Assembly: GCA_003552075.1 (NCBI GenBank) | Contig: PUOJ01000027.1 | Location: forward strand, 1-36,073 | Direction of reading: 5' to 3' | Source of the DNA: Bacteroidales bacterium | Lineage (GTDB): Bacteria > Bacteroidota > Bacteroidia > Bacteroidales > UBA7960 | DNA length: 36,073 bases | Part shown: positions 7,892 through 35,688 of the stretch, one piece after another | How positions within the stretch are numbered: position 1 is the stretch's first letter | How the letters are laid out: each line of letters opens with the position of its first letter | Made by a program: the position numbers and the translations under genes | The notes under the pieces: generated by a model | Told to the model about the DNA's origin: nothing | Seen by the model: the letters and a program-made list of their open reading frames with translations, nothing else | The model's database searches: none

Positions 7892-8192
7892 AGGTTTTCG
7901 TTTAGATTCACAAAACACCAGTCCCGAGGGAAAGGGTCTTTTCCGTAATAAAAGGAATAAATGCTGGGTTTTGTTTAGTCCGAACGACACCGGCAGAATA
8001 AGGTACCTTGACTAGTGTCTTGTGAACGACACAGTAGCATTGACGCGACACTAGCGTTTTATCTGTTTGTGTTTTCAAGAGGCCTGCTGTTGACTAATGG
8101 CCTTTAACTTTCTTGCCAAAAGCCAATAGCCAAAAGCTAATAGCTCCTTGACAATAATCAACCCCCTGTGTGTCAAGAAATCCTTGCATGGC
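7892..8192 (-). other. fumA-fumC gap with hairpins and an A element
   Basis: This 301-bp gap holds no gene. The half near fumA carries an A-type heptad element (8058-8144). Next to it are overlapping inverted repeats: CTAGTGTC 8012-8019 pairs with GACACTAG 8047-8054, while the inner GTGTC 8015-8019 can instead pair with GACAC 8028-8032. These are mutually exclusive hairpins in the fumC leader. I found no exact TAnnTTTG promoter for fumC. Confidence 0.5.
8058..8144 (-). repeat. A-type heptad element (site 1)
   Basis: Read in the sense of fumA/fumC, it runs as in-phase heptamers GCTATTA, GCTTTTG, GCTATTG, GCTTTTG. Then come the core GCAAGAAA, further units GTTAAAG, GCCATTA, GTCAACA, GCAGGCC, and a tail CTTGAAAACACAAACAGATA. 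Core and tail recur at 18132-18239 in the same orientation relative to transcription, with the same last units (GYMAACA, GCADDCC). It lies 48 bp after the fumA stop. Confidence 0.7.
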
Positions 8193-17450: not shown

Positions 17451-17505
17451 TTTAAGGACAAAAGGACGAAAGGACAAAAAGTCCAAAGGTCGAAAGGTCT
17501 AAAAG
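17451..17505 (-). repeat. C-type octamer array before hutI
   Basis: On the hutI sense strand this is an in-phase octamer run: CTTTTAGA, CCTTTCGA, CCTTTGGA, CTTTTTGT, CCTTTCGT, CCTTTTGT, then CCTTAAA. It ends 12-18 bp before the hutI ATG. The same unit and orientation occur at 25869-25948, 30761-30809 and 35641-35688. Confidence 0.75.
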
Positions 17506-17523
17506 TACGGGTTTGCAGTGAGT

Positions 17524-17645
17524 TGTGCCTTTAACCCCATAAGCCTTTAACTCCTTAACCCACTAACTCCTATACTTTCTTGCAACAGCCAAAAGCCTTC
17601 TTACTGCTTACTGCCTGCTTCTTACTGCCTGCTCCCAGCTTCCAG
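17524..17645 (-). repeat. B, A and D modules in the SPOR-hutI gap
   Basis: Read in the sense of hutI, the gap holds three modules in sequence. B heptamers come first (17645-17598: AGCAGGC, AGTAAGA, AGCAGGC, AGTAAGC, AGTAAGA). A short A element follows (17597-17571: GGCTTTTGGCTGTTG, then CAAGAAAGTATA). D comes last (17569-17524, repeats of the GGGTTAAGG / GGGGTTAAAGG type). The order B, A, then C is repeated at 25732-25948. With the C array this leaves almost no unique sequence in the 217-bp gap. Confidence 0.65.
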
Positions 17646-17656
17646 CGAACAGCCAC

Positions 17657-18106
17657 CTAATCCGCCCTGATCAACAACCAGACGTCGTGGTATTCAGGGT
17701 AGTTTCTCCTGATATGCGCGATGCGTCTGCGGGCGGGTGCCTCTTCTTCGTATGAATCTACAGAAACCCGGTTAAACCCGGTCTCAGAGAGCAGGATGGT
17801 CGGACTAAAGTTTTGTCCCCGCAGGGTGACCATGAAGTTTTCCGCGTTTTCTCTTTCAATGAAGCTGCCCAGAATCACAAAATAGGTGTTTTCGTCCTGG
17901 GAGACCTCATCTTCTTCCCTCTCAAAGGTAAAACGCTCTTCAACCACCCGTATTTCGGCCTCAGGCGTTGGTTCAGGTTCTGGCTCCGCCTCAGGGATAG
18001 GCTCTTCTTCAGGAACTGGTGGTGGTTCTGCGGGAACCATGTCCTGTGAGCGGCAGGCTACCATCAGCATGCTGACGGAAAGCAGTAGAATGAATAGTTT
18101 GTTCAT
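17657..18106 (-). CDS. SPOR-domain lipoprotein
   Basis: A 149-residue predicted lipoprotein. The signal ends in lipobox LMVAC (Cys18). A Pro/Glu-rich, probably extended linker (about 25-52, PEPEPEP-like) follows. The C terminus (about 72-149) resembles a SPOR domain, the fold that binds denuded peptidoglycan glycan strands: YFVILGSFIERENAENF, then GFNRVSVDSYEEEAPARRRIAHIRRNYPEYHDVWLL. The layout suggests an envelope protein reaching from a membrane to peptidoglycan, perhaps in cell division or wall remodelling. There is no acidic export signal right after the Cys. It is flanked by repeat modules on both sides. Confidence 0.8.
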   Translation of the reverse strand: MNKLFILLLSVSMLMVACRSQDMVPAEPPPVPEEEPIPEAEPEPEPTPEAEIRVVEERFTFEREEDEVSQDENTYFVILGSFIERENAENFMVTLRGQNFSPTILLSETGFNRVSVDSYEEEAPARRRIAHIRRNYPEYHDVWLLIRAD

Positions 18107-18131
18107 CTGTTAGTGATTTGTTATGTTATTT

Positions 18132-18239
18132 GTTATCTGGTGTTTGTGTTTTCAGGCGGAATGCTGTTTGCTATTGGCTTTTGGCTTTTAGCTTTTGGCT
18201 TTCTTGCTAATAGCCAACAGCTAACAGCCAAAAGCCTAC
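18132..18239 (-). repeat. A-type palindromic heptad element (site 2)
   Basis: This is the most complete A element. In the mutB/SPOR sense, the left arm has heptamers GCTTTTG, GCTGTTA, GCTGTTG, GCTATTA. The 8-nt core GCAAGAAA follows. The right arm has heptamers GCCAAAA, GCTAAAA, GCCAAAA, GCCAATA, GCAAACA, GCATTCC, with tail GCCTGAAAACACAAACACC and AGATAA. Left and right arms are complementary, so the element can fold into a long imperfect hairpin with the core at the tip. It begins immediately after the mutB stop codon. Tail and core match site 1 (8058-8144). Confidence 0.75.
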
Positions 18240-20393
<2,154 letters not shown>

Positions 20394-20497
20394 AACTCGC
20401 TATTTTTTATTGAAACACCGGATTTACCGGCATATTTGCTAAACTTTCTTCCTTCTCCCTGCGTTTTCCCCCACAACCCATGCGCTACGCGCTACCC

Positions 20498-20644
20498 TAC
20501 TTCTTACTACTTACTTCCTACTTCCTACTTCCTACTTCCTACTTCCTACTTCTTACTTCCTACTTCCTACTTCCTACTTCTTACTTCTTACTTCCTACTT
20601 CCTACTTCCTACTTCTTACTTCCTACTTCCTACTTCTTACTGCC
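20498..20644 (-). repeat. B-type array: 21 in-phase heptamers
   Basis: These 147 bp are exactly 21 heptamers with no insertion or deletion. On the + strand, 13 are TACTTCC, six are TACTTCT, one is TACTACT and one is TACTGCC. On the mutA/mutB sense strand this is (GGAAGTA)n, with substitutions confined to unit positions 1, 3 and 4. It begins 11 bp after the mutA stop and ends 104 bp before the mutB start. The open frames running through it encode only Tyr/Phe/Leu/Pro/Thr/Ser repeats and are artefacts. Confidence 0.9.
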
Positions 20645-20655
20645 TCCTCCCGTCC

Positions 20656-22506: not shown

Positions 22507-22946
22507 AAATCAATCAAATTTTCAGGGTTAATATGCAGGATGTTGTCAACCTGCATGATCATCGGTTTATATTTTCGCGACGCCATGGCCTGCTGTGCAC
22601 TTCTTTTTCAGCTTTCTTGCAGTGGTTTTAGGCCGATGATATGGGCCTGCAACCAGGCTTTTGCCACTGTGCTGAAATGAACTGCCCTTGCAAGACGTCT
22701 CTCGCGCAATGCCCCCGCCTGTCTGTCAACGTCTTGTCATCAGAATGCATCATGCAGGTTAAAATCGCCCCAAAAATACAATAAAAATGGGAACATTTAG
22801 TAATTTCGCACAATCATATAAAAAGGGTGGTGACAGGATAAGGCATTGTGGCCCAGTGTTTCAGCATTTAATTGGAAGCAATGGCCCGTACGGACTAATC
22901 ACAGATGTCACCATCCTACAGAAATAAACCGCTAATACAGGATCAA
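22507..22946. promoter_or_regulatory. Divergent mutA/leuS gap with two inverted repeats
   Basis: The 440-bp gap holds no convincing gene. An imperfect hairpin spans 22606-22677: TTTCAGC 22606-22612 pairs with GCTGAAA 22671-22677, and CAGTGG 22620-22625 pairs with CCACTG 22664-22669. A second inverted repeat pairs CAAGACGT 22691-22698 with ACGTCTTG 22729-22736. The first contains GCAAGAAAGC and AGCAGGCC in the mutA sense, echoing the core and tail of the A element. Possible -7 boxes are TATTTTTG (minus, 22778-22771) and TAATTTCG (plus, 22801-22808), neither with a clear -33 partner. Confidence 0.4.
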
Positions 22947-25731: not shown

Positions 25732-25862
25732 TGAAGTAAGAAGTAGGCAGTAAGCAGTAAGAAGGCTGTTGGCTTTTAGCTTTTGGCTGTTGGCAAGAAA
25801 GTTCTGCGGGTTGTTTTGATTCACCTGCTCTGTTTGCCAAAAGCTAATAGCTAAAAGCTAAC
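25732..25862 (+). repeat. B and A modules between leuS and the lipoprotein gene
   Basis: In the sense of transcription, B comes first (25732-25765: AGTAAGA, AGTAGGC, AGTAAGC, AGTAAGA). The A left arm follows (25764-25798: GCTGTTG, GCTTTTA, GCTTTTG, GCTGTTG, core GCAAGAAA). After 35 bp of spacer comes the A right arm (25836-25862: GCCAAAA, GCTAATA, GCTAAAA, GCTAAC). The 30 bp at 25736-25765 are identical to the reverse complement of 30942-30971. A C array follows at once. Confidence 0.75.
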
Positions 25863-25868
25863 GGAAGA

Positions 25869-25948
25869 CCTTTCGACCTTTCGTCTTTTTGTCTTTTCGT
25901 CCTATCGACTTTTTGCCCTTTTGTCCTTTCGTCCTTTTGCCCTTTTGC
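25869..25948 (+). repeat. C-type octamer array before the lipoprotein gene
   Basis: Ten octamers run in phase: CCTTTCGA, CCTTTCGT, CTTTTTGT, CTTTTCGT, CCTATCGA, CTTTTTGC, CCTTTTGT, CCTTTCGT, CCTTTTGC, CCTTTTGC. The array ends 18 bp before the ATG at 25967. It is the longest C array in the window. Unit, phase and orientation match the array before hutI. Confidence 0.85.
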
Positions 25949-25966
25949 CACCACAAACCAACCAGT

Positions 25967-30760: not shown

Positions 30761-30809
30761 AAAAGTCCAAAAGTCAAATTGCCCAAAGGTCTAAAGGTCT
30801 GAAAGTCCC
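30761..30809 (-). repeat. C-type octamer array before lptE
   Basis: On the lptE sense strand: CTTTCAGA, CCTTTAGA, CCTTTGGG, CAATTTGA, CTTTTGGA, CTTTT. The units are in phase but more degenerate than at 25869-25948. The array ends 34 bp before the lptE ATG and has the same orientation to transcription as the other three C arrays. Confidence 0.65.
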
Positions 30810-32639: not shown

Positions 32640-33180
32640 CCACCCCGAGCCCCGTAAGCATGCCTCCAGGCCCACTAGCATCCCCACCACGAGCCCCGTC
32701 AGGGGCTCAACACGAATAACCCCGCATGCAATGCGGGGCCACAGCGCATGCAATGCGGGGCTACCGCGCATGCAATGCGCAGCCACAGCGCACCACCATG
32801 GCTGAGCGCCAGCGTGGCAGCAGGACTGCGTGGCTACCCTGCCAGCATCGCTACACGCCGACGAGCACCGCCCACCACGAGCCCCGCCAGGGGCTCAACA
32901 CGAATAACCCCGCATGCAATGCGCAGCCACAGCGCACCACCATGGCTGAACGCCAGCGTGGCAGCAGGACTGCAAGGCTACCCTCCCAGCATCGCTACAC
33001 GCCGACTAGCACCGCCCACCACGAGCCCCGCCAGGGGCTCAACACGAATAACCCCGCATGCAATGCGGGGCTACCGCGCATGCAATGCGCGGCCACGTGC
33101 AAGCGGACTAAGAGGCGGCATGCCAGAGGGGCTACCTGCCAGCGGGCTACTCACCTGCCCTGGGGCCACGAGGAGCGTGG
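32640..33180. repeat. P-type palindrome block, tandemly amplified (site 2)
   Basis: Most of the 777-bp divergent gap between the sigma-54 gene and metG is GC-rich repeat. Three copies each contain stem 1 GAGCCCC-GTCA/GCCA-GGGGCTC (at 32691, 32879, 33023), linker AACACGAATAA, and stem 2 CCCCGCAT-GCA-ATGCGGGG. Copy spacings are 188 and 144 bp. The 44-bp difference is two extra copies of a 22-bp hairpin unit (GCATGCAATGCGGGGCYACM-GC), present 3, 1 and 2 times in copies 1-3. The intervening ~92 bp (32779-32870 and 32923-33014) are nearly identical. A degenerate partial copy precedes (32630-32685) and a CCACG-AGGAG-CGTGG hairpin ends the block. Open frames through it are repetitive artefacts. Confidence 0.85.
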
Positions 33181-35640: not shown

Positions 35641-35688
35641 CCTTTCGTCTTTTTGTCCTTTCGTCATTATGTCCTTTTGTCTTTTTCA
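35641..35688 (+). repeat. C-type octamer array upstream of the tRNA
   Basis: Six in-phase octamers: CCTTTCGT, CTTTTTGT, CCTTTCGT, CATTATGT, CCTTTTGT, CTTTTTCA. It has the same unit and the same orientation to transcription as the arrays before hutI, lptE and the 25967 lipoprotein gene, but lies farther (116 bp) from its downstream gene. Confidence 0.75.

Follow-up and report, generated by a model that had tools for sequence, protein, structure and literature searches.

Porphyromonas gingivalis belongs to the Bacteroidales, the order of the source of the DNA studied here. Its BrickBuilt MITE, always intergenic and present in 19 copies in one strain, occupies locations that vary between related species (PMC4596501), and going by the portion of that account available it is the nearest described construction that we met. 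BrickBuilt sets a tandem array between a unique leader and tail in an intergenic position, as does the element reported below. The two differ in their parts: BrickBuilt has a 23-nt unit without spacers and IS5-type terminal inverted repeats, whereas here the units are degenerate, seven nucleotides long and bounded by other ends, and complementary arms and a core, both present here, do not appear in the available portion of the BrickBuilt description (PMC4596501).

The nearest described words, on a similarly partial account, are the degenerate intergenic heptamers (GGGANTN)n of Xanthomonas and GGGGA(T/C)T of Nostoc (PMC4692102). Like the heptads found here they combine fixed with free positions, vary in length and sequence among close relatives and are sometimes inverted, which makes stem-loops possible. 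They differ in being a G-quadruplex word and in mostly keeping their place between the same genes when two Xanthomonas species are compared, and the excerpted account describes no common core, tail or left module for them; it does report heptameric repeats to be over-represented in bacteria (PMC4692102). A further heptad, TAACTGA, is known from marine Beggiatoaceae, cyanobacteria and five Bacteroidetes. It too is mostly intergenic, near start codons, accompanied by other heptamers in some genomes and patchy over phyla, but it is a single exact word, placed mostly just upstream of starts in its main genome, and no hairpin element is described in the part of the report at hand (PMC4679880). The word found here, GCTNTTR / YAANAGC, is unlike all of these, and 7-nt tandem units in spacers are the common trait.

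Palindromes of the REP and GTAG kind resemble the element in another way, being dispersed, placed for the most part after coding regions, believed to work at the RNA level and able to supply stop codons; according to the sections of the source available, they differ in their short stems (5-13 bp) and RAYT partner and carry a GTAG tag, which is seen here in some copies (PMC3733652). In the literature searched, which was open-licence papers reached through short result lists, no account of the element or of the GCTNTTR grammar was found, and of 617 papers carrying one of five heptad strings in their text the 15 listed look unrelated by title.

The element behind mutB and its relatives in the window

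The window, the whole stretch of 36,073 nucleotides that was analysed, comes from a Bacteroidales assembly (G000) of 2.39 Mb in 198 contigs that is 86.5% complete. Names of its genes such as mutB, leuS, fumarase and gldK are those of the original prediction or putative assignments from the sequences. That prediction placed a composite element at 18132-18239, an arm of (GCTNTTR)n followed by a core and a complementary arm, and such an element is present there as described, on the minus strand. Read directly, it begins straight after the stop codon of mutB (18242-18240), leads with GTAG and runs without a left module to the ATG at 18106, making a complete spacer copy at 18107-18239. The sequence reading gives a left arm of four GCTNTTR heptads (18208-18235), a right arm of YAANAGC-type heptads (18170-18198) and an A-rich tail reaching the next start codon (18107-18169); exact search puts the core, GCAAGAAAG, at 18199-18207, and its AAGAAA is predicted to form the loop of the consensus hairpin. 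A covariance model matches the same place (18102-18240 of the window contig) with an E value of 1.5e-17, the window copy being also part of the model's alignment.

The core was said to recur at three other sites in the window, and it does so exactly, at 8108-8116 and 17575-17583 on the minus strand and at 25793-25801 on the plus strand; a complete copy, among these four sites, is found only behind mutB. The second copy, behind the fumarase-like gene on the minus strand, shows part of a left module (TTGACACACAGGGGG..) at 8145-8177, by left-module search and reading, a left arm at 8117-8144 and, at 8059-8116, the core, a degraded right arm and the tail (8059-8078). The claim that this site and the one behind mutB have in common a tail with AGATAA is borne out, as TTGAAAACACAAACA..AGATAA recurs at 8059-8078. 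Behind the leuS-like gene, on the plus strand, the left arm and core lie at 25765-25801 and a right arm stands separated at 25836-25862, about 35 nt past the core. The partial copy at 17575-17596 (minus strand) consists of the core and two left heptads, followed in the sense direction by GTTAAGG-type heptads. Another exact core, the fifth, lies at 22612 and is free of heptads. End-pattern searches and reading also brought up a short relative without heptads at 1391-1483 on the plus strand, which has similar ends (ATGAAC.. to ..ATTATAAACAC) and runs up to the ATG that opens the following ORF (1484).

Other repeats occupy spacers of the window. The mutA-mutB spacer (20496-20645) is filled by about 21 copies of the heptad CCTACTT (GAAGTAG in the gene sense), and an array of this type is absent from the 220 nt upstream of mutB in the genomes G005 and G007. 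Octad arrays of GGACAAAA and CCTTTCGT types lie at 17454-17506 and 25869-25949, both close to heptad arrays, and at 30761-30808 and 35641-35686. A 144-bp tandem repeat in two copies, with GCATGCAATGCG motifs, occupies 32763-33067.

A family of spacer repeats in the source genome

Exact copies of GCAAGAAAG number 80 in the 2.39 Mb of G000, against 10 for the reversed pattern, so that the core is not there by chance. By a loose word pattern, 48 of the 80 stand directly behind a heptad and 32 have no heptad there. The sequence around all 80 was examined (386,663 bases, including the window), and a common plan emerged of an optional left module, a heptad hairpin around AAGAAA and an A-rich tail that is about 60 nt long and ends at AT(G). 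The left module starts near ATGAAAC, holds TTGACACACAGGRGGATGATTATTG and ends near CTAAGTAGG; the middle consists of 1-7 GCTNTTR heptads, the core and then 1-7 YAANAGC heptads; the tail lies near CAGTCCTGTTGAAAACACAAACATCAGATAACCAATTAGTTGAAAAATTATAAACAC and is followed by AT, mostly as ATGAA. The left-module pattern had 42 matches against 0 for its control and the right-end pattern 73 against 2. Whole elements are about 130-230 bp long, short, non-coding and dispersed, and there are in addition heptad-less units of about 91 and 120 bp with similar ends, some of them head to tail. The proposal that core and tail are kept among copies was thus confirmed over many more copies than those on which it was based.

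A small ORF in the left module (ATGAAACCT..TAG, open in some copies) was considered and rejected, as other copies, inspected by eye, have early stops or shifted frames. A promoter-like TAnnTTTG box is found in the element in 3 of 48 copies forward and 6 of 48 in reverse. The exact left-module pattern had no matches in viral contigs.

Position was judged against gene calls from a crude, purpose-written gene finder. On these calls all 48 heptad-linked cores are intergenic, lying outside predicted genes, and in the 24 spacers between co-directional genes 23 copies are oriented with both genes and one against. The remaining copies lie in 15 divergent and 5 convergent spacers, with 4 lacking a called neighbour on one side, and wherever a downstream gene was called it is co-oriented in 39 of 45 cases. 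Some copies in tandem spacers have no left module, their arm beginning at the stop codon itself; this is so behind mutB and, by eye, at L019, L020 (2986), L026 and L034. Right ends carry ATGAA in 24 of 39 copies, found with a fuzzy pattern of which AT is already a part. In spite of this figure a rule of start-codon targeting alone was rejected, and only a preference for start codons is claimed, because convergent and non-start sites occur.

A Pfam scan of 20 among the 39 co-oriented downstream genes gave matches for 19 and nothing for the remaining one, and no family is common to the 20. Two folate enzymes and several oxidoreductases among them are put down to chance, and no regulon is evident. 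The site behind mutB is one member of a dispersed spacer repeat family that respects the direction of its neighbours and is concentrated in one small clade.

Congeners and the possible spread of the element

The extent of that clade was seen in several searches. Exact TTGGCAAGAAAGCCAAAAGC occurs at 17 loci in GTDB contigs, from which the source genome's own records were possibly left out; 15 of the 17 are in the Bacteroidales MAGs CSSed10_80 (PWRF01, 14 loci) and CSSed162cmB_594 (SLEW01, one), and the two others, in a Cellvibrionaceae MAG and a Theseobacter MAG, are taken as chance. Among 59 genomes the pattern GCTNTTRGCAAGAAAGCC was found 36 times in G000, 14 times in G005 and once each in G007 and G021, the match in G021 having no heptads around it, and in none of the rest. 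A covariance model built from 37 copies out of G000, G005 and G007 confirmed that the genome holds further copies, with at least 56 in G000 and at least 44 in the congener G005; these are lower bounds, since up to 57 candidates were scored per genome. Each of the other 57 genomes had at most 3 matches and 50 had none, and matches below E 1e-6 were restricted to G000, G005 and G007.

Peptides neighbouring 22 of the 48 copies were searched in G005 and G007, and 27 orthologous spacers of 19 copies could be compared. The core was in 0 of the 27, as were two or more heptad words. Six of the spacers (L109, L103, L104, L114, L121 and L125) contain stretches like the left or right module, three of them reversed, under a both-strand fuzzy pattern that has 2 matches in 106 kb of coding DNA as well; a weaker stretch of this kind was seen by eye in L113. 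Not every orthologous spacer is therefore a clean empty site. Several are occupied by other short tandem repeats: in the element's place behind mutB there are octads in G007 and hexads in G005, in L112 (G005) a 16-mer near NAATGTRAGCCAGCAG, repeated about nine times, stands where G000 has a heptad hairpin, and the L106 spacer (G005) has complementary octads of GTGCTAAT. At L021, L035 and L042, by eye, an upstream part with a TAnnTTTG-like box is also present in a relative and the inserted part lies between this box and the ATG. Congener spacers L106 (G005), L079 (G009) and L068 (G003) hold complementary or long arrays of other words, namely GTGCTAAT, GTTAGAT and TTCAACGA.

The absence of the core from the 27 orthologous congener spacers, six of them with related end modules, makes the repeat look mobile. 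We consider it probable, on balance, that the site belongs to a dispersed intergenic family of mobile appearance, which inserts into spacers or replaces them in the transcript sense and which may serve as a divider and leader in mRNA. Judging from its position, the element would be part of the mRNA, whether in the stretch that separates a stop codon from the following start codon or within a 5' leader. The hairpin could then act as a physical divider, protecting 3' ends or spacing ribosomes or RNases, and the A-rich tail could provide the following gene with its leader. Copies may spread by a copying process, with a transposase acting in trans or by recombination from spacer to spacer, and selection would keep their orientation, because the sense orientation alone would leave a working leader before the downstream ATG.

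Heptad words beyond the genus

A period of seven extends beyond the element itself. In 200 spacers sampled around core sites, the lag-7 match was 0.312, against 0.262 in shuffled and 0.240 in coding sequence, and the 18 spacers of the window gave 0.329 against 0.266. Three GCTNTTR units under a strict pattern were found in 25 of 395 genomes of the phylum, one of them the source; the reversed pattern was in 8 of 395. Perfect one-word repeats account for several of the 25, and G350, G080, G069, G074 and G398 have degenerate words. The source genus is itself patchy: G000, G004, G005, G007, G008, G013 and G018 have the grammar and 14 of 20 congeners, among them G002, lack it, the reversed pattern being found in 4 of 37 genomes. 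Around the distant genome G398, which is itself counted, 4 of 40 relatives have the grammar and 3 of 40 the reversed pattern.

In G398 the loci were chosen by word pattern and not by position, and 16 of the 17 taken from the matches listed have paired arms. As raw counts, 15 of these 16 arrays lie within 8 nt of a stop codon, and 12 have an ATG within 14 nt as well; three of six paired arrays in G350 adjoin a stop, again as a raw count. The loops in G398 spacers differ, and GCAAGAAAG is in 0 of the 17 loci. Neighbouring genes of the G398 arrays presumably include rplB-rpsS, rpsG-fusA and pheS-pheT. At L231 in G350 (997-1047), two convergent genes have as their stop codons TAG units of one and the same 49-bp heptad palindrome. 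At L182 in G201, right-arm words form four arrays within 3.5 kb; three of the arrays end near an ATG, and the region may be a prophage or another mobile segment.

A single mobile element fails to explain the same heptad grammar, coreless, in distant genomes. As a tentative wider reading, which we hold to be possible and still some way from probable, Bacteroidota may share a seven-letter spacer grammar of TRGCTNT units, with TAG/TGG stop-like in phase; in certain genomes a hairpin would fill the exact gap from stop to start, the free positions varying independently between arms and copies. Such spacers, seemingly including those of ribosomal-protein and pheS-pheT operons, might be built by an active process, either a templated system that writes or copies degenerate repeats or a factor that reads the words. 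An active process is suggested because the grammar, unlike the core, is common to distant genomes and may be missing from close relatives.

The words could alternatively be recognition units for a DNA- or RNA-binding protein, with the arrays and palindromes as multi-site targets and the hairpin as a by-product of word polarity. Five of the seven heptad positions are nearly fixed and two vary independently in the two arms, as such recognition would suggest, in figures that are biased upward because loose word patterns chose 37 of the 55 copies, a selection that favours this reading; the same words also recur in distant Bacteroidota. No candidate protein was found, however, the words are patchy even within one genus, and the core and tail need another reason, so that we regard protein recognition as unlikely.

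Hairpin and covariation

A fold of the transcript with the core at its tip had been proposed, and it is indeed predicted: the folding energy is -38.3 kcal/mol (z -4.8) for the consensus, whose stem has 26 pairs, and -37 (z -5.5) for the window copy. After the hairpin, by eye, the U-tract of an intrinsic terminator is absent, with CAGTCCTGTTGAAAAC-type sequence there instead. The arms had also been called complementary, which holds at the level of the word; mismatches are frequent at the variable base of the heptads, and the innermost facing pair is A.A in 33 of 48 copies. From heptad 1 to heptad 4, the facing variable bases pair in 2/48, 8/36, 12/25 and 4/15 copies, against shuffled means of 3.0, 10.2, 11.7 and 4.6. 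RNAalifold, run on the copies of G000, G005 and G007, kept 9 pairs, none of which showed a compensatory change, and its covariation term was unfavourable. When right arms were exchanged among 37 copies, the mean folding energy was -33.2 for real and -33.4 for exchanged molecules, and 42 of 60 exchanges were at or below the real mean. In 27 paired arrays from distant genomes, the facing variable bases are complementary in 23 of 99 cases, and the permutation mean is 0.28. Covariation as proof of structure was rejected on both sets, the copies of the three genomes and the distant arrays.

The hairpin is thus a consequence of the words, because swapped arms fold equally well and none of the nine pairs is compensatory. 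It is the words that are kept and not the pairs, which is a constraint at word level. The original prediction had proposed constraint on a structured element, which would make it a structured cis-regulatory RNA, whether leader or 3' element, with selection acting on base pairs. The strong predicted hairpin, the kept core and tail and the transcript sense all agree with this. Since RNAalifold, the shuffles and the arm swaps were all negative, no covariation beyond repeat periodicity was found, the result that the prediction itself had named as telling against it, and the arms are uncoupled within copies. The confinement of the strong model matches to three of 59 genomes, the absence of the core from the 27 orthologous spacers and the lack of a family common to the 20 downstream genes scanned also speak against a structured RNA, as does the Rfam search of the whole window, in which nothing but one tRNA reached the gathering score. 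A vertically kept RNA is already largely refuted, and we judge selection on base pairs to be improbable.

Comparison with known mobile repeats

By its behaviour the family resembles both MITEs and REPs, but membership of either class fails on the ends, the stem length and the partner gene. Terminal inverted repeats were not found, the ends ATGAAAC.. and ..AAACACAT having, by eye, only ATG/CAT in common. Tandem units ending in ATGAA suggested an ATGAA target-site duplication, which was rejected; in six copies (L013, L017, L037, L044, L052 and L088) a left ATGAA faces a different right pentamer, the remaining copies being uninformative. Among the end-pattern matches in the fragmented assembly, inspection by eye gave no left-right end pair framing a gene, as an autonomous relative would have. 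One Y1_Tnp gene was found in the incomplete assembly, and heptads, core and ends are absent from its 2947-bp locus.

A degraded or atypical REP/RAYT-type family, with palindromes moved by Y1 transposases, would account for hairpins that adjoin stop codons and for the GTAG that 18 of 44 copies of the source genome and 5 of 14 in G005 have at the foot of the hairpin. GTAG REPs often supply a TAG stop (PMC3733652), and RAYT subclass 2.6, according to the available part of its description, is mostly from Bacteroidetes and is flanked by atypical structures with copies elsewhere (PMC6006769). Against this, 26 pairs exceed the 5-13 bp stems of GTAG REPs, Bacteroidetes are not listed among GTAG repeat hosts in the accessible sections of that work (PMC3733652), and the sole Y1 transposase gene found has no element parts in its locus; we give such an origin little credence. 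Ordinary replication slippage of heptamers with a chance inverted arrangement, which would fit the heptad number of 1 to 7 per arm and the stated over-representation of heptameric repeats in bacteria (PMC4692102), is highly improbable and is refuted as the sole cause because unique flanking modules are shared, the same core, tail and left module recurring at dozens of unrelated loci with an orientation bias of 23:1. The original prediction, too, had set simple slippage aside.

Implications

If the dispersed, direction-respecting family is confirmed, the spacers of these genomes would be rewritten by a modular repeat that respects both the direction of the transcript and the edges of genes, and different repeat dialects would fill the same spacer in sister species. 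Should the phylum-wide grammar be the work of one process, the question of why heptamers are over-represented in bacterial spacers would become testable.
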